From Apteryx mantelli (lineage: Eukaryota; Chordata; Aves; Apterygiformes; Apterygidae): DNA of 64,000 bases. Positions within the stretch are counted from its first letter, which is position 1. The number at the start of each line of letters is the position of its first letter. Both the position numbers and the translations under genes were made by a program. Of the stretch, positions 3,901-59,192 are shown piece after piece. The notes beneath the pieces were generated by a model. The model did no database searches, was not told the DNA's origin, and worked only from the letters and a program-made list of their open reading frames with translations. The stretch spans positions 12,176,001 through 12,240,000 of the forward strand of contig NC_089991.1 in assembly GCF_036417845.1 (NCBI RefSeq). Reading direction: 5' to 3'.

Positions 3901-5236
3901 AGGTGTCCGTGCACGCTGCCTGAGCTGCCCTGGCCCTCCTGGAGAAAGCCAGGAGCTGGCAGGAGCATGAAGCCCTTCTCCCCAAGGGGCTGGGAGTCAC
4001 GGCTGTGTTTTCTCCCCCAGAAGCAGGTACCTGCACCGTAGCCCTTGGCAGCCGCCTGCCTCTGCAACTTGCTCAGCACTGGGGGAGATGCAGCACCAGG
4101 TTTAGGGACCTGTTGCCTTAGCTGGGAAAGTCAGGAGTACATTGGATATAGGTTGTCTCCACAGCAAACTGTGATATAACAGGGTGGGTCTGTGAATCTT
4201 CCACAGCTCAAACCCACAAACATGACCACACCTGGCTTCTTCCGTAAGCTGTACTGCATGGGTGTTGAGGGTGCCGATTTAATTAGTGGTTGACTGTTTA
4301 CTTGGCCTCACTAGCACCCTGCATCCCCCAAACCCCACACTGATGGTGCAGGTGGAAAGGAAGGTCCTAATGGGGCTTCTGTGAGGTGGGAGAAAAAGAA
4401 AAAGCAGCGCCCACAGGAGGTGGTTCCCCCTTGCCATGGAGATCGCATGCAAGATCAGCAAGAGCTTGCTCCCTGCGAGCCGGATGAGTAAGAACTGCGT
4501 GCCAAGTTCCCTATCTACATTTTGGGAAATCTCAGCCTTTTCTTCTACTTGGAAACATCCTCAGGTCTTGCACTGGGAGGTGTTGATCCATCAGCTTTGC
4601 CTTCTTCCCAGCAGCCAGCCCACAGGGTGCTGGGGCAGATCTGGAGCCCTCCTTGTAGCTCCCCTGGCTTTCCCTCTGCCCTGGGATAGAGAAGGCAAAT
4701 CGCTGGGTCCAGCAGGCTCTCTAGCTTTTGTGAATGCAGGTCTCCACAGCTGCTGGCTTGTTTTGTAACTTGTTATTGTGGATCTGCAGAGTGAATCATG
4801 TTGCAGAGCCTCCCGTGGCAACAGCCACCGTTGGGAGGATGTACGTGATACACCCTTTCTCCAGCAGCTGCGTCCCAAAAGGATGGATGTGAGCACAGAT
4901 CCCATCACAGGCGAACAAGTAGATGCTGAAAGAGAGCTCCAAGGCAGCAATGGGACCCTGTGGCTGAGAGCTTTCCGGGGAGATGGGGAATAATGAGGGG
5001 GAAATAAAGAGAAATTTAAAGATAGATATTTAAGGGAAATGACCACCCTTGCAGAAGGTTATGAGGCCACCAACTTCTGCCTGAAGAGGAGCTCAGGAGC
5101 TGTGTTTAGCTTGTGTTAGCAGCAGCAGGAGATGTCCCACCATGGCAAGGTCTCTCCAGGTCTTGTCCAGCTGTGGCAGCTCGGTGCGTGGCTCTGTGGA
5201 GACTCGTGGCACAAGTAATGACATTTCTGTTTCCAG
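923..5236 (+). other. LONRF1-like: LONRF intron 1
   Basis: About 4.3 kb. GC content drops from CpG-island levels at its start (to about 1,100) to ordinary levels. It contains an AATAAA at 1853-1858, which could act as a cryptic intronic poly(A) signal. I see no coding exon, recognisable transposon or RNA gene in it. The phase 1 to phase 1 join across it gives a gap-free LONRF alignment, so no exon appears to be missing. Confidence 0.7.
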
Positions 5237-5355
5237 CCCCAGATGACACTTCCCTGCGGCTGCGCCGGGCAGAGGCGTACGTGACCCTGGGGCAGTATCC
5301 AGAGGCGCTGGAGGACCTGGATGCGGTGTGCAGGGCTGAGCCTGGAGATGGTAAG
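5237..5355 (+). CDS. LONRF1-like: LONRF exon 2: first TPR repeat
   Basis: Residues 122-161, entered in phase 1 (joined codon GCC, Ala122) and left in phase 0. It encodes a TPR helix pair recognisable from LRLRRAEAYVTLGQYPEALED. The joined sequence across the exon 1/2 border aligns without a gap to the corresponding part of LONRF1, which argues against a missed exon in the 4.3 kb intron 1. Two donors overlap here, GTAAGG at 5351 and GTGAGC at 5356; only the second keeps the frame into exon 3. Confidence 0.9.
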
Positions 5356-7191
5356 GTGAGCAGAGGGAGTGCTGCGGGGTGTGAGCACCCGCTGTCCATA
5401 CTTCTTGCTCTGACAACGGGAGAATTTGGGGGAGAAGACTTGGAGAAAGAGGACCTCTGGGATGTCAGAGGCTGCCCGCAGCAAGGTGTGAGCGAGAGCA
5501 GCTGCCCTGCTGCTCTGTTCTCTGAACCCAGAAGGGATTTTTGCCCCCATTTTGAGCATGGCCCGGCTGGATGGTGCTGTGTGGTGGTAATGGATATATC
5601 CTCCAGCCACAGAGGAGACTTTCCCTTTGGATGTCACAAATCCTGGAGCTGTCAGACCTTCCCTGAACGTGAACATCTCCTGCCCCTAGTATTACAGTCC
5701 TACTTACAGCCAAAGCTTACCATATAGGAGGAATTTCCCCCTTTCAGCCCCAAACGGTTTCTTCTAGCTGTCCTGGCATGGTTCAGAAAGCTCGCTTCTC
5801 TGTCCCCGTGCCAGGGAGGGAGGAGAAGGCAGAAGTCTGGGGAAATCTTAGCTCCAGAGAGGGATGTGGATATTTTACCTGTCTTCCAAAGGTCCTAATC
5901 CCAATCTCCTGTTAGCCACTGATTGCAGGGCCCGGCTCGTGGTTCACTGACGATCGTGAATTCACATAGTCATTGGATTCATCCTGCTTGGGAATACGCT
6001 ATCCAAATCCAGTAATGATGTGTTAAGTTGCAAATACAGGATGTAAATGCTCTGTCCCACTGATGGACCCATCCATCAGTAGAGGTCCGGAGCTGCCTGG
6101 TGTCTTCACTTGCACACACACACAGCGAGTGCACGTAGCTGTGCTGGTGATGGGAGGAGCAGCCTGGGATGGGTCGCAGAGCCCGGGGCTCTGGGGAAGT
6201 TTTGGCTGAGCTGCCCTCCAAAAAAAAACAGGCGTGGGAGCTCGCTTGCTGATTTGAGCAACACTTTCTGGCAACAGTTTCTCAGCATTCAAAGGCAAAG
6301 CCCTTGACCCCTTCTCTAGGCCTCTGTAGGGTTTATTTACTTGGCTTTTGCAATTGTCGCATTTTGGGAAACTCCTGTTTTGTGCGGTATGTGGCTGTGC
6401 TGACACCGGTTTCTCTCTGAGGTTGGATCTGGTAGGCAAAAAAGACAAGCCTGAGCATGGGAGCAGCAAACTGTCCGGATACTTCAGCTTTGGCTGGGGG
6501 CAGGCAGGACGATGGAGGGAGGCTCCCTCCAGACTCGACGCTCACCCAGGAGCTGAAGGGCAGCGTTCTCAGCTGGCAGCAGGCCCAGTGGGCTACAAAC
6601 AAGACCAGCCGTGTGGTGATGTGCCCATTTAATCAGAGGGCTGGGGAACAGCAACAGGAGCTCGCCTGAGGCAGGGAAGAAAGAGTAACCTCTTACCTTC
6701 CTTTTTGGTGAGATTTGCACCAGCCTTAACCCCAAACCAGGCCTTGGGTCTGCAAGGCCAAGCCTGGGGCTCTCTGTGCCACCATCCAGGTGCTTGCTGG
6801 GGCACGCGTTCCCCTCTCACTGGGTGCTTTGGCTGCATTCAGGGCAAGAGAGGCGAGGGCTGCTGGAGGGATGCTCAGGCCTGTGTTACTAGTCGGGATC
6901 CCCAGCTAAACTCCTGGGACCAGCTGGAGGAGCGCTGACACTGCTGCATTGCTTCCCGAGCTGTCTCTCTAGGCCGGGGTAGGAGGAAGCTGTGCTTTGG
7001 GTCGGATACTTCATCCGAGCCTCTGATTGAAAAAACATGTCTTCAGAGCTGCCAGTCTAGGCACCGTTCACCTCCCTTCTGGAACAAGGCTGCCTTTGAT
7101 CCTCTGGACCAGCTGGCAGGCAGTCCTGATAGATTAAGAAAAAAAGTTGCCTCTGTGTCTTGTAGTCAGCACATGTCTTTTTGCTCTGCAG

Positions 7192-14008: not shown

Positions 14009-14425
<417 letters not shown>

Positions 14426-14740
14426 TAACTTTGCTGGCCTCCTTGCACCGGAGTTAAATGCAAAGCTGGATGTGGAGTGCAGGCCACCTAGACTGCAAAA
14501 ACCTGGGAGCTCCTGGTTATGGATAGTGAAGTCAGGTTATGGTGTGTGAATCCTCCCCTTGCTCCGTGCTGTGGCTAGCTCAGGCTCAGCAAACACTCTA
14601 GAGAGCAGACAAGATGCTGAAGCTGGGTGCGATGGGAATAAGTTTGCTCTTTGCCCCATGGCCTCTCCTCTGTCAGGTGTGAGCTGCCGTCTTCCTCCTC
14701 CCCACGCACCCCCCTTTCTGCTTTCCTTTCCTCCACGCAG

Positions 14741-21260: not shown

Positions 21261-21816
21261 CCCCCTTCCCGCCTGTTCAGCTCTCCCAGGCCAGAGAGAT
21301 GTCTCCACGGCTGGGCTTCGCCTCTCCGGGCCAGCTGGAGGATCCGCTGGGAGGTGGCCCCATCCCACTGCCCAGCCGCCTCCTCCAGCTCCCCTGCCCT
21401 CGTCGCCAGCAATTTCGGTCCTTCCTGCTTGGCACTTTCAACTTGCCTCACCTAATAGGGTGGGCAAGCAATTAGCTAAAGTGGCAAGTAATTAATGCAG
21501 CAGATGTCAGGCTGTGCCTCGTGTTTCTTTAACAAATGGCGTCACTCCAAACCAATTAAACCAGCCAGTACTTGAGATAGCAGAAAATCAACACGAGGTT
21601 GTTAGCGCTAAGATCTTTTTCTCTAGTCAGGCGTGCTCATGCAGAAAGCAGAGCGCATTGCGTTTTATGGTTAATGAAGGCGGAAAGAAAGGGGGGAAAA
21701 TTTCAGCACCTAATTTTTCCACACTTTAGGAAAGACTAGTTGGTGCAAAGAAAGCATGATCATATTGTGCCTGCTTTTTCAGAAAAATAAGGAAAAAAAA
21801 ACAATGAAGTCAGATC

Positions 21817-23490
21817 ACAGAATCACAGAATCGCTGAGGTTGGAAGGGACCTCTGGAGATCATCTAGTCCAACCCCCCTGCTCAAGCAGGGTCACCTAGA
21901 GCACATTGCACAGGATTGCATCCAGGCGTGTTTTGAATATCTCCAGAGAAGGAGACTCCACCACCTCTCTGGGCAACCTGTTCCAGTGCTCTGTCACCCT
22001 CACAGTGAAAAAGTTTTTCCTCATGTTCAGATGGAAGTGTCTGTGTTTCAGTTTGTGCCCGTTGCCTTGCGTCCTGTCGCTCGGCACCACTGAAAAGAGT
22101 CTGGTCCCATCCTCTCGACACCCTCCCTTCAGATACTTGTACACGTTGATAAGATCTCCTCTCAGCCTTCTCTTCTCCAGGCTAAACAGGCCCAGCTCTC
22201 TCAGCCTTTCCTCATAAGAGAGATGCTCCAGTCCCCTAATCATCTTTGTGGCCCTTCGCTGGACTTGCTCCAGTAGTGCCACATCCCTCTTGTACTGGGG
22301 AGCCCAGAACTGGACACAGTACTCCAGATGTGGCCTCACCAGGGCTGCGTAGAGGGGGAGAATCACCTCCCTCGACCTGCTGGCAACACTCCTCCTGATG
22401 CACCCCAGGATACCATTGGCCTTCTTTGCCACAAGGGCACATTGCTGCCTCATGCTTAACTTGGTGTCCACCAGCACTCCCAGGTCCTTCTCCACAGAGC
22501 TGCTTTCCAGCAGGTCAACCCCCAACCTGTACTGGTGCATGGGGTTATTCCTCCCCAGGTGCAGGACCCTGCACTTGCCTTTGTTGAACTTCATGAGGTT
22601 CCTCTCCGCCCACCTCTCCAGCCTGTCCAGGTCCCTCTGAATGGCAGCACAGCCCTCTGGCGTATCCGCCACTCCTCCCAGTTTTGTATCATCAGCAAAC
22701 TTGCTGAGGGTGCACTCTATCCCTTCATCCAGGTCATTGATGAAGAAGTTGAACAAGACTGGACCCAGGACTGACCCCTGGGGGACACCGCTAGCTACAG
22801 GCCTCCAGCTAGACTCTGCGCCGCTGATCACAACTCTCTGAGCTCTGCCATTCAGCCAGTTCTCAATCCACCTCACTGTCCACTCATCTAACCCACACTT
22901 CCTGAGCTTACTTATGAGGATGCTATGGGAGACAGTGTCAAAAGCCTTGCTGAAGTCTAGGTAGACAACATCCACTGCTCTCCCCTCATCTACCCAGGCA
23001 GCCATTCCATCATAGAAGGCTATCAGATTGGTTAGGCATGATTTCCCCTTGGTGAAGCCATGCTGACTACTCCTGATCACCTTCTTTTCCTCCACATGCT
23101 TGGAGATAGCCTCCAGGATGAGCTGCTACATCACCTTTCCAGGGATGCAGGTGAGGCTGACTGGCCTGTAGTTCTCTGGGTCCTCCTTCTTGCCCTTTTT
23201 GAAGACTGGGGTGACATTGGCTTTCTTCCAGTCTTCAGGCACCTCTCCTGTCCTCCATGACCTTTCAAAGATGATGGAGAGTGGCTTAGCAATGACATCC
23301 GCCAGCTCCCTCAGCACTCGTGGGTGCATCCCATCAGGGCCCATGGATTTGTGGGTGTCAAGTTTGCTTAAATGATCTCTAACCCACTCCTCCTCCACCA
23401 AGGGAAAGTCTTCCTTTCTCCAGACTTTCTCTCTTGTCTCCAGGGTCTGGGGTTCCTGAGGGCTGGCCTGAGCAGTAAAGACTGAATGCA
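21817..23490 (-). mobile_element. CR1 LINE, 5'-truncated, intact 3' end
   Basis: On the minus strand this is the 3' part of a chicken-repeat-1 non-LTR retrotransposon. The 3' terminus at 21,817-21,832 has two ATTCTGTG octamers, the CR1 hallmark. The 5' limit near 23,490 is where similarity to CR1 ORF2 fades. The short 3'UTR (about 80 bases) after the ORF2 stop is typical. High ORF integrity indicates a fairly recent insertion compared with the second CR1 in this window. It lies in intergenic DNA, antisense to the LONRF gene. Confidence 0.95.
21896..23490 (-). pseudogene. CR1 ORF2 (reverse transcriptase), one in-frame stop, 5'-truncated
   Basis: Translation from about 23,490 to the stop at 21,896 is one reading frame, interrupted only by a TAG at 23,126-23,128 (after the [13 protein letters not shown] block). 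That position is usually Glu in CR1, which fits a single GAG-to-TAG change. Downstream, a 399-codon open frame starts at 23,095. Reverse transcriptase motifs visible: motif [16 protein letters not shown], the [11 protein letters not shown] block, the catalytic FADD at residues 133-136 of the 399-codon frame, and the conserved C-terminal WNRLPREVV segment. The endonuclease part of ORF2 is missing through 5' truncation, so this copy is not autonomous. Confidence 0.93.
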
Positions 23491-24624
23491 GCTTCTCTTT
23501 CGAGAGAACCCACCCATGGGATATATTCAAAGCCAGAAAATGACCAGTGCTGAAAAAAGTGCTTTCAAGCCACTGCTGGCGTGGTCTGAGTGGGACCTGC
23601 TGGTCGCCCTGGAGAAACAGCCCTGTTGTTTCCTCCAGATGGACCATGCGTAGCATGAAATCAATTGCTGTTGTTTACGGAGTAGAGCGATTGCCGGGTG
23701 CGTGCGGAAGGCGACCCAGAGCAGAGATCGGGTGGCAGCCGGCCACACGCTCTTGTGCAGCCGCCCTGTTTCCCTGCTGAGCAGAGGAGTTATCCAAGCC
23801 TGCCCCCGTGTAAAGAGTGAGAAACACCCGCTGCTTTAATAATACATTTTAATAAATAGATTTACTGGAACAGGCTTTTCTTAATAGCTTTTCAAAACCC
23901 ATATGGGTCCCTGGCAGTGGTGTTGCCCCCAGCCCTCCTGCGCTGCCTGGCTCAGAGCTGTCTTTTGACCTGCCCTCGGGAAGCACCCGAGGGAGGAATT
24001 AATCCCCCCAACATGTCCCTCATGCCAACAGCCCCGAGGATCCCAGCTCTTATTCCCAACACATGCCAGAGCCAGGCAGACAGTAACAGCTTGGTGTGCT
24101 TGATCACTTCTCTGTAATTACAGAGCAACCTCCTCCTCCTCCTCCTGCTTCTCCCCCACCAAATGACACATCTGGGCCAGGCACCACAGATGGGCAGATG
24201 AGAGCAGAAAACCAGGCATGGTTTGTCCAAAGGACAGAGAAGGGGAAGGGAGGGAAGGATGTATCCCTAATCAGGTGGGCCGCAGCACAGCAAGGCTGTG
24301 CACCTGCCAGCACAAACTTGAGGCTGAGCACCCAGGTGGGGGATGTGGGATTACCATTCTGCATAGACCCGGCACAACGGAGACCAGATGTGACCATGTC
24401 CTTGGATGCCACAGCAACACAGACAGCCACCGCTGATGCTAACACCTCACTTGGAGGCTAAGTTGCAATGAACACCAATTTGCTTCAGGCCAGATGTGCA
24501 GGACTGTAAGGGATGTCATCTGGAGTTGGCAGTCTGGGAACAGGGGAGTTGTTTGCTGTGGCTGGTGGGACCAATAGCCACTCTCCATTCAGGCACGGTC
24601 TTCTTGGAGTAGGTAACCAAAGTG

Positions 24625-56455: not shown

Positions 56456-56644
56456 TTATAATCCCGTCGCTCCCAGGGACATGCCGGTGCTGTGGCTCAT
56501 GCACGGAATCGTCTGCATGGATTTGGGGAAATCATGGCTGACCACACGTCCGTTCTCTCCACTGCCTCCCGCTGCAGCTGGCCTGGGAAGGGTTGATGTC
56601 CGTATGGCTTCGTTGATTGATTGCTGTGGGATTAAACAAAAACC
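56456..56644 (-). CDS. GRIA1: GRIA1 last coding exon: GluA1 cytoplasmic C-terminal tail
   Basis: 62 codons plus TAA (56,456-56,458). It begins [20 protein letters not shown] and ends [20 protein letters not shown] then SLGATGL, unmistakably the long cytoplasmic tail of AMPA-receptor subunit GluA1. Kept features: the CaMKII/PKC serine (mammalian Ser831, in QQSINE), Thr840 (STLPR) and the class I PDZ ligand ATGL that binds SAP97. Changed: after LPR the mammalian tail reads Asn-Ser, where the Ser is the PKA site Ser845, then a Gly/Ala/Ser stretch; here it reads Pro-Ala-Ala-Ala then GGSGENGR. The PKA site is therefore missing and the linker is about four residues shorter. Acceptor AAAAAG|GG. The preceding exon is 59,058-59,192. 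Confidence 0.95.
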
Positions 56645-59057
56645 CTTTTTAGGAAGGACGGGGGGATCTCCCCCTGTCCTTAGCAATGTTGGAGAAATTG
56701 CAGTATAAAGCAATGTTGTCTCTCTGTAACTGTTCTCTCTCTTCCTGCCTCCACTTGTACTCCTGCTTGCTGCATGTCCCTACTGCATCTGCTCTGTTAA
56801 TTTGCACCTCTTCTAGATTCAAAATTAAATGTTTCAGCTGTATTTTGGGGCATAAAGCATACATGCCATATGCAGAAACTACTCAAACCTCTACAAACAT
56901 AAGAATAGCCATATTGGATCAGATCAGAGGTATTATATTCACTTCCCCCATAGATATGCAATTGCTACTCCAGTACCGTTATGTATGGTGGACTCTGACT
57001 CACTGCAAGCATATGTTTAACTTTCCTCATGTGAGAAGTTGAGCATGTGCCTATGTTTTTGTCTGCAGTGATGAATGAGGTAACCAGGAAATGCAAACCT
57101 AATTTAGGAACCCAAATCTCATCTTCCTGTTCCAGATACTGTCCAAAAGTTTTGCCCGCTTTTGGAGATCTATGAAAACTTGTTTAGAAGAATTCAGCTA
57201 ACAGATCGAGTCCTTTTGGTTTGTTTGCTTTTGCTTTTAAGCTACTTCAAAGAGGGGCACTGTCATCCCCTCTAGAATGGGATGTCCATGTGAAGAATTA
57301 TCCAAAAGAGACAACTGCGGAAGAGCCAGTCAGAAAGAGTCACTCACTGGATTGCCAGGCCCAGAGCAGCCACCCATGCTTGCAGCATTTGCAGCTGCCC
57401 TGTGGGGCCCTCCTGGCTGAGCAGATCCCAGGTGCCGAGATGGCTGTTTGGGATCAGACCTCTCAGAGGGGGATTTCGCCTGTCTTTCTGGGCTCGTCTG
57501 GGCTCTGCTAAATGGTTTTGGGGAGTGGCCAACTGGCGATAGGCGCCAGCCAAGGGGACCAGCTTAGGCCAGACGCTAACACTGGGAGAAAAGGTTTTCC
57601 CTCGCAGTGGCTGGTTATAACGGGACAAGAGCAGCGCAAACTAACATTTACATGAATTAGCAGGTCATTTGGAGCAACACAGGAAACTAACACCAGGCAG
57701 CATCTGCTTAGGATTAAAACTACAGAACTATTGCATGCCGACACTCCTGCTCAGTGTATTTGTGACATATCTAGCTTTACAGTGTAGACAATTATAATTT
57801 AATTTTTTATATTCAGGGACATAAATTGCACACATTATCTTACCCTTGTGCTCAATGTACCTTTCATTGCCTGTAGAATTTTCTGAACCTCAATGGGAAA
57901 AGCACTATTGCACATTTTCAGTGAATTGGAAATGTTATTATTGCTGATAAAACATTAAGCGTGTTGTGAAATGGTGATATAAAAAACAAAGAAATGTTTT
58001 TGTTTTTTCCTGTTGATTCTGGGTAAGTTTCAGGGCTCAGGGGAGTGAAAAATCTCACTGAATTTTAGGAAACTCACTTCATACTCTGCATGCTCATATT
58101 GACTTCCTTGCTCACAGGAGTGCTCAAGGGCAGGAAGAAAAGGGATGCATTACTCTTACAAAAATCCCTTTGCACCCTTATACAGAACAGTAATGCCTTA
58201 GCAGGCATTGCCACTGCTAGTCAGCTGAGTCAAGATGAACTTATTGCACAGATGCTTCATTAAATGCATATCCCCAAGGCTCTCAAAGCTAATCCAGCCC
58301 GATCTTGCCATGCATTCTGAAATTTAGGCACACCAGAAGTCAGGGCTGAGTCTCCTGGATCATAGGAACCACATTCTGCAAGACCATGCCAGGGTAGAGA
58401 AAAGACCCACTGCAAGCAAGATCCATATTCTTATACTCTAGACCCACATCACCAGAGGTCCCATTCCAGGGCATTTACTTGGGAAAATAGTGTTCATCTA
58501 GGGCTAAAGGCTGGAAATCTGGTAAATGCTCTGTGCATCTAGCAGTTGCCTACGTGTAAATGGTGCCAGAAGGGGGCCAGCAAAGGGAACAACAGGATCT
58601 GATTCATTACTGCACTACCCCAGTTTTATCTTGCTGTTAACTGCTTGGGCTTTTTCGGATTTTTTTTATTGCAGTGGCTGCTGTATGACACCAGCCCCAG
58701 CAGACTTCATCCACGCTGCGCACGTGGATTCCCATGGTCTGCTTTCTTAATTTTAAGGAATAGCAATGTTTTCCCGTTACCATTGTGCTATGAGTTTGCT
58801 CTGTATCTGGATTTTGAACAAGAATTATGCCACACATCTGATTTTGCATCTGCTACCAACTTTGGCACACTTGACCCTCTTTTAGCTTCCTCTGATGCTC
58901 CTATTCCTTTCTAACAAGTCAAGTGATACGGTCACTTCATTATGCCTATATCTTGGCTTTCCAGCCGTGGTCTGGGCTGCATCCGTCTCTGAAGGCAGCT
59001 TTGGAGCCGGGCTGGTATCAGAAAGAAGGTGTGAAAGGCCTGGGAATTGGTTGCCAC
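56645..59057 (-). other. GRIA1: GRIA1 last coding intron
   Basis: A 2.4 kb phase 0 intron between the TM4 exon and the C-tail exon. Its donor is GTGGCA rather than the consensus GTRAGT. Reading through from the TM4 exon gives 41 further codons to a TGA-type stop at 58,932-58,934. No transposon recognised. Confidence 0.8.
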
Positions 59058-59192
59058 CTTCATCCGCTTTGATTCACTTCTGGACTTGTAACAAAACTCG
59101 ATTAAGGCAACCAGCATGGCTAGTCCGAGCCCACCGATGAGGATATAGAAAACCCCTGCCACATTGCTGAGACTCAGAGCGCTCGTCTTGTC
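59058..59192 (-). CDS. GRIA1: GRIA1 TM4 exon (GluA1 transmembrane segment 4)
   Basis: 45 codons, phase 0 on both sides. It reads [10 protein letters not shown], then the fourth membrane segment [20 protein letters not shown], then [15 protein letters not shown]. As far as I remember it is identical to mammalian GluA1 over this exon. It carries the juxtamembrane palmitoylation cysteine (mammalian Cys811, in EFCYK) and the PKC/4.1N-region serines Ser816 and Ser818 (SRSES). The acceptor is TTCTAG|GAC; the donor AAG|GTGGCA is weak. GluA1 is a pore-forming subunit of postsynaptic AMPA glutamate receptors. The upstream flip and flop exons are not in this window. Confidence 0.97.

Follow-up and report, generated by a model that had tools for sequence, protein, structure and literature searches.

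Does the GluA1 of Apteryx mantelli possess Ser845, the residue which acts downstream of dopamine and noradrenaline and which has been replaced in S845A GluA1 mutants, knock-in mice among them? The mammalian literature describes Ser845 as a site through which cAMP and NO/cGMP signals reach AMPA receptors, its phosphorylation by PKA and cGKII driving the insertion of GluA1 (PMC7038066), and as the residue to which SAP97-AKAP79/150 brings both PKA and PP2B (PMC6502786). The question is raised by the last coding exon of GRIA1, which lies in the window analysed here, a 64,000-nucleotide stretch that forms part of a 27.4-Mb contig. At the level of the assembly the answer is supported: the GluA1 encoded there is without Ser845. 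We consider it highly probable, on the basis of this one assembly, that A. mantelli GRIA1 is a genuine gene encoding a GluA1 tail that has lost the Ser845 phosphosite.

The tail exon and its reading

The coding part of the tail exon, which translation, phmmer and tblastn identify as the last coding exon of GRIA1 from GluA1 residue 823 to the C-terminus, occupies exactly positions 56644..56456 on the minus strand, its 189 bases comprising 62 codons and the stop codon TAA (56458-56456); the plus strand of 56456-56644 contains stops when translated, and the coding strand is the minus strand, which the first-pass annotation had left unspecified. Because the acceptor immediately upstream is weak in a simple matrix, the start of the exon was placed from the mammalian protein. 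Residues are numbered from the 888-residue chain 9s3q, the first glycine of the exon being residue 823, and this numbering puts Ser831, Thr840, Arg843 and Ser845 where the first-pass annotation has them. The PDB chains 9j92_A, 9s3q_A, 6njl_A and 7ldd_A are mammalian GluA1 chains.

A phmmer search of the PDB sequences with the tail returned 12 distinct matches at E values up to 10, the best being a full GluA1 chain (E 2.9e-30); seven others fall below 1e-27, and the weaker matches include GluA4. Since the best match is to GluA1 at this E value, and since the preceding exon agrees with human GluA1 in 45 out of 45 residues (tblastn), the tail exon is, as judged from its sequence, no chance open reading frame.

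The codon table on the minus strand bears out the first-pass annotation, which had read an arginine followed by Pro-Ala-Ala-Ala and then by GGSGENGR. Arg843 (AGG, 56582..56584), the basic residue that is kept ahead of the lost phosphosite, is followed 3' by the codons CCA GCT GCA GCG GGA GGC AGT GGA GAG AAC GGA CGT, the first four of which (56570..56581, also evident in the alignments) encode Pro-Ala-Ala-Ala, so that position 845, counted from Arg843, is alanine (GCT, 56578-56576). At this place the assembly reads CCAGCTGCAGCG. The Arg-Asn-Ser arrangement, in which a serine two residues past Arg843 serves PKA and cGKII, is replaced by Arg-Pro-Ala, and a search of the tail exon for a new Arg-x-Ser or Arg-x-x-Ser found none, the only such patterns that remain being R837-T-S839 and RVVS, both of which also occur in PDB GluA1. 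The residues that had been described as kept are indeed present on the minus strand: Ser831 (TCA, 56618..56620, by the 9s3q numbering), Thr840 (ACC, 56591..56593) and the C-terminal PDZ ligand Thr-Gly-Leu (ACG GGA TTA, 56459..56467), the tail ending in GATGL and the stop.

The comparison with GluA1 9j92_A, to which the A. mantelli tail is 92% identical and with which it has Ser831, Thr840 and the terminal GATGL in common, likewise agrees with the claim that Ser845 is absent, because the one long difference between the two proteins is the replacement of NSGAGASG by Pro-Ala-Ala-Ala, which leaves the A. mantelli tail four residues shorter and without Ser845. Two single substitutions relative to PDB GluA1, SMQS to SMQT (56510-56512) and GMPL to GMSL (56477-56479), lie near the PDZ end on the minus strand.

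A reading in which the Pro-Ala-Ala-Ala codons belong to an intron that ends at an acceptor within the exon (tgcag/CG, the slash marking the junction) was rejected, as TSTLPR is continuous and in frame and the exon corresponds to GluA1 from end to end.

Integrity and copy number of the gene

The preceding exon, which encodes TM4 and the membrane-proximal part of the tail, was located by tblastn and its flanks at 59058..59192 on the minus strand; its acceptor is strong (13.0 in an approximate matrix), and its donor is a gt (gtggca). When human GluA1 was used as a tblastn query against 150 kb of the contig, taken in fifteen stretches starting inside the window, 15 blocks were obtained in order on one strand across about 129 kb, covering residues 1-757 and 796-906 of 906. 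The locus thus has the coding exons of a multi-exon GRIA1 in order from the signal peptide to TM4, together with a tail exon that carries the GluA1 motif and the C-terminal TGL of a GRIA1 orthologue. Stops occur in one of the 15 blocks (28-103), within a part of it that we read as intron beyond the end of the exon. The flip/flop exon pair, whose residues fall between the blocks, was not recovered from the sequence, in which part of the gene is represented by N. The GRIA1 gene looks intact.

In the whole 1.504-Gb assembly, a 24-base stretch of the tail exon has one match, and a protein search with the tail gave 12 matches at E values up to 10. Four are the tail and the TM4 exon of GRIA1 itself, a TM4 exon resembling that of GRIA3, and the tail of GRIA4 (E 0.025); the other eight are weaker or comparable and include some TM4-like exons of more distant receptors. 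The GRIA3-like and GRIA4 tail matches are on contigs other than that of GRIA1. That the locus is a retrocopy, a pseudogene or a paralogue with a decayed tail we regard as extremely improbable: a search for evidence in favour of this gave nothing, and it is opposed by the facts that the exons are separated by introns and the TM4 exon is unchanged from the human protein over 45 residues, that the 15 blocks are in order and the tail is found at one place in the assembly, and that the related tails occupy contigs of their own. The retrocopy, paralogue and second-copy readings are rejected on the genome searches and the ordered tblastn blocks.

It is also very unlikely that an assembly or base-calling error in the linker conceals a real allele with the serine. 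The linker is GC-rich (69% GC over 56556-56590) and is known here from the assembly sequence, which favours such an error, but a base-calling error normally produces a single indel with a frameshift, whereas here the frame is kept, eight codons are answered by four coherent ones between two intact flanks, and the searches of the assembly gave no second version.

Several other features of the window and of the genome were recorded. If the donor of the TM4 exon is read through on the minus strand (58935-59057), the frame is open for 41 codons and starts VATNSQAFH, resembling the short tails of GluA2 and GluA4; the window has 292 12-mers that start with VA, a total in which the observed one is counted, and of these 3, 7 and 4 score equally well against the GluA4, GluA2 and GluA3 tails, respectively; the read-through is possibly, though weakly, a relic of a short-tail form. 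A fragment of a CR1-type LINE on the minus strand (21896-23125) contains an open reverse-transcriptase frame of 409 residues (Pfam RVT_1, E 7.9e-28), 3'-end motifs of bird CR1 occur beside it at 21813-21853 with 1 and 3 mismatches, and the adjoining frame at 23126-23674 has no Pfam match. Frames on the plus strand at 5110-5724 and 14009-14428, respectively TPR-like (below the Pfam cut-off) and a LON substrate-binding domain, suggest a gene of the LONRF type downstream of GRIA1 on the opposite strand. Positions 1-321 hold a 33-base tandem repeat in 9.7 copies within a stretch of 74% GC.

Elsewhere in the genome, alpha-A globin, translated from three joined exons, is nearest to bird chains among the best 60 of 69 PDB matches, in which the best single-copy chains are 3a59_A (283.5 bits) and 1faw_A (282.8 bits), followed at a distance by 3at5_A (224 bits) and 1a00_A (212.2 bits); these are globin chains of ostrich, a bird, a turtle and human, and the ranking points to a bird host. 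The six matches placed above 3a59_A are hemoglobin constructs of 283-285 residues, in two of which the alignments comprise a pair of alpha domains scoring about 208 bits apiece. Six COX1-like fragments (L041-L046, on contigs 2 and 15), with 59-70% identity to COX1 and an in-frame TAA in three of them, are probably nuclear copies of mitochondrial DNA; the search of the assembly with COX1 returned no intact copy, so that no mitochondrial genome came to light by this route.

Substitution or deletion of the serine

The manner in which the serine was lost can be approached through GRIA4, whose long-tail exon in the same genome (locus L021) matches PDB GluA4 from LTFSEA onward and keeps the equivalent serine in the form Arg-Leu-Ser. 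The spacing from the arginine to GENGR is 7 residues in A. mantelli GluA1 and 7 in the GluA4 long tail, both in its own genome and in the PDB chains 9rnh_A and 9igz_D, compared to 11 in 9j92 GluA1, and the GRIA1 and GRIA4 DNA align without gaps from the arginine codon to GENGR. GluA4 differs in having Arg-Leu-Ser where A. mantelli GluA1 has Arg-Pro-Ala. In a five-sequence protein alignment made with MAFFT, the GluA4 serine faces the first alanine of A. mantelli GluA1, while mammalian Ser845 faces a gap and the second serine of the mammalian linker faces the second alanine.

The reading that we prefer, counting from Arg843, is that Ser845 has become alanine (an S845A-like change) and Asn844 has become proline, with Arg-x-Ser as the probable ancestral state and the mammalian linker as the one that grew. 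The first-pass annotation had described about four linker residues as gone, a wording that is doubtful. The tail does have four fewer than 9j92 GluA1, but the spacing of A. mantelli GluA1 recurs in its own GRIA4, so that the short form of the linker may be ancestral and the four “missing” residues may have been gained in mammals. The polarity of linker length is drawn here with GluA4, a single paralogue, as the outgroup; it depends on GRIA4 because a search of the genome for the GRIA2 long-tail exon matched only GRIA4 and GRIA1. The alternative that A. mantelli GluA1 lost four residues, Ser845 included, stands beside the preferred reading of serine to alanine, because mammalian Ser845 faces a gap in the protein alignment. 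Under either reading, substitution or deletion, the serine is lost.

The GFCLIPQ segment and its tandem acceptors

The comparison with GRIA4 bears also on the beginning of the tail exon, where the codons GGTTTTTGTTTAATCCCACAG (56624..56644, minus strand) encode GFCLIPQ, a heptapeptide specific to GluA1. In the DNA alignment these codons lie against the 3' end, pyrimidine tract and acceptor included, of the intron that precedes the long-tail exon of GRIA4 (cttttctttgatcccag), and GFCLIPQ therefore looks like exonised acceptor sequence, which would have become coding through the use of an acceptor 21 bases upstream.

Acceptor scoring and the DNA alignment also point to a possible second in-frame acceptor, cccacag/CAA, at 56623 on the minus strand. 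Its use would produce a GluA1 that lacks GFCLIPQ and has Ser831 after KRMKQ, in contrast to the upstream-acceptor form, in which ATGAAG is joined to GGTTTTTGT. The downstream site scores 6.38, compared to 4.69 for the upstream cctaaaaag/GG at 56644 and 8.0 for the GRIA4 acceptor, which lies at the aligned place, and the upstream value is below the range of the acceptors of 13 other GRIA1 exons (5.52 to 13.14). These scores come, however, from an approximate matrix, applied in 12 of the 13 other exons to the best AG within 36 bases, a choice that favours those exons, and GFCLIPQ is present in the mammalian protein. Use of the downstream acceptor is thus judged unlikely, and an in-frame isoform without GFCLIPQ is a possible product of this arrangement.

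Extent of the loss among birds

The preferred explanation is compatible with a loss of Ser845 which is old and common to many or all birds, or to a wider group, and which would then be a feature of a clade and not a peculiarity of the species; this alternative, which bears only on the reach of the loss, we rate at somewhat less than an even chance. An ancient origin of the short linker would lead one to expect the length that it has, which equals that of the GluA4 linker. In domestic chicks, learning-related phosphorylation of GluA1 was measured at Ser831, and Ser845 is not named in the review of that work (PMC4726915); these data are compatible with a loss of Ser845 and are silent on position 845 itself. 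Against a shared loss stands the fact that nothing in the analysis, which includes one bird sequence, dates the change. Among the literature matches listed, as judged by title and the start of the abstract and with most subscription journals outside their scope, none dealt with avian Ser845 or with how the site evolved, and the available portions of PMC4677690 and PMC12551409 contain nothing relevant. Stray vertebrate sequence was also sought in viral and in prokaryote contigs, by one scan each; none of the resulting 38 and 592 pattern matches was confirmed, and no relative was obtained.

Consequences for the regulation of GluA1

The first-pass annotation had proposed that GluA1 is regulated in this species without phosphorylation of Ser845, and of this proposal the part that concerns the protein stands, as there is no serine at 845 and no replacement site of the PKA type in the tail exon, while the effect on the receptor is a prediction. 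A. mantelli GluA1 should not be phosphorylatable by PKA or cGKII at position 845, in which case cAMP- and cGMP-dependent control of its surface delivery and open probability would have to use other routes or be absent for GluA1. Candidate routes would be Ser831, Thr840, the membrane-proximal serines, the PKA site Ser842 of GluA4, and the auxiliary subunits; for cAMP-sensitive delivery in particular, either Ser842 of GluA4 or auxiliary proteins would take over. The A. mantelli receptor should act like a constitutive S845A channel: as in the laboratory S845A mutants, residue 845 is an alanine and offers no phosphoacceptor, but the A. mantelli change is natural and is accompanied by Pro844 and a different linker.

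A broader proposal, which we hold to be rather unlikely, is that GluA1 plasticity runs on a naturally S845A-like receptor throughout a lineage of birds or even in birds as a whole, in which cAMP/cGMP control would have moved to GluA4 Ser842 and to other GluA1 sites, GFCLIPQ having been exonised with the old acceptor still usable here.

If the loss is real, antibodies against phosphorylated Ser845 cannot report on GluA1 in A. mantelli. The textbook mammalian cAMP switch of a main glutamate receptor of the brain appears to be missing from the A. mantelli protein, and a vertebrate without Ser845 would constitute a natural experiment on whether synaptic plasticity and memory require the site.
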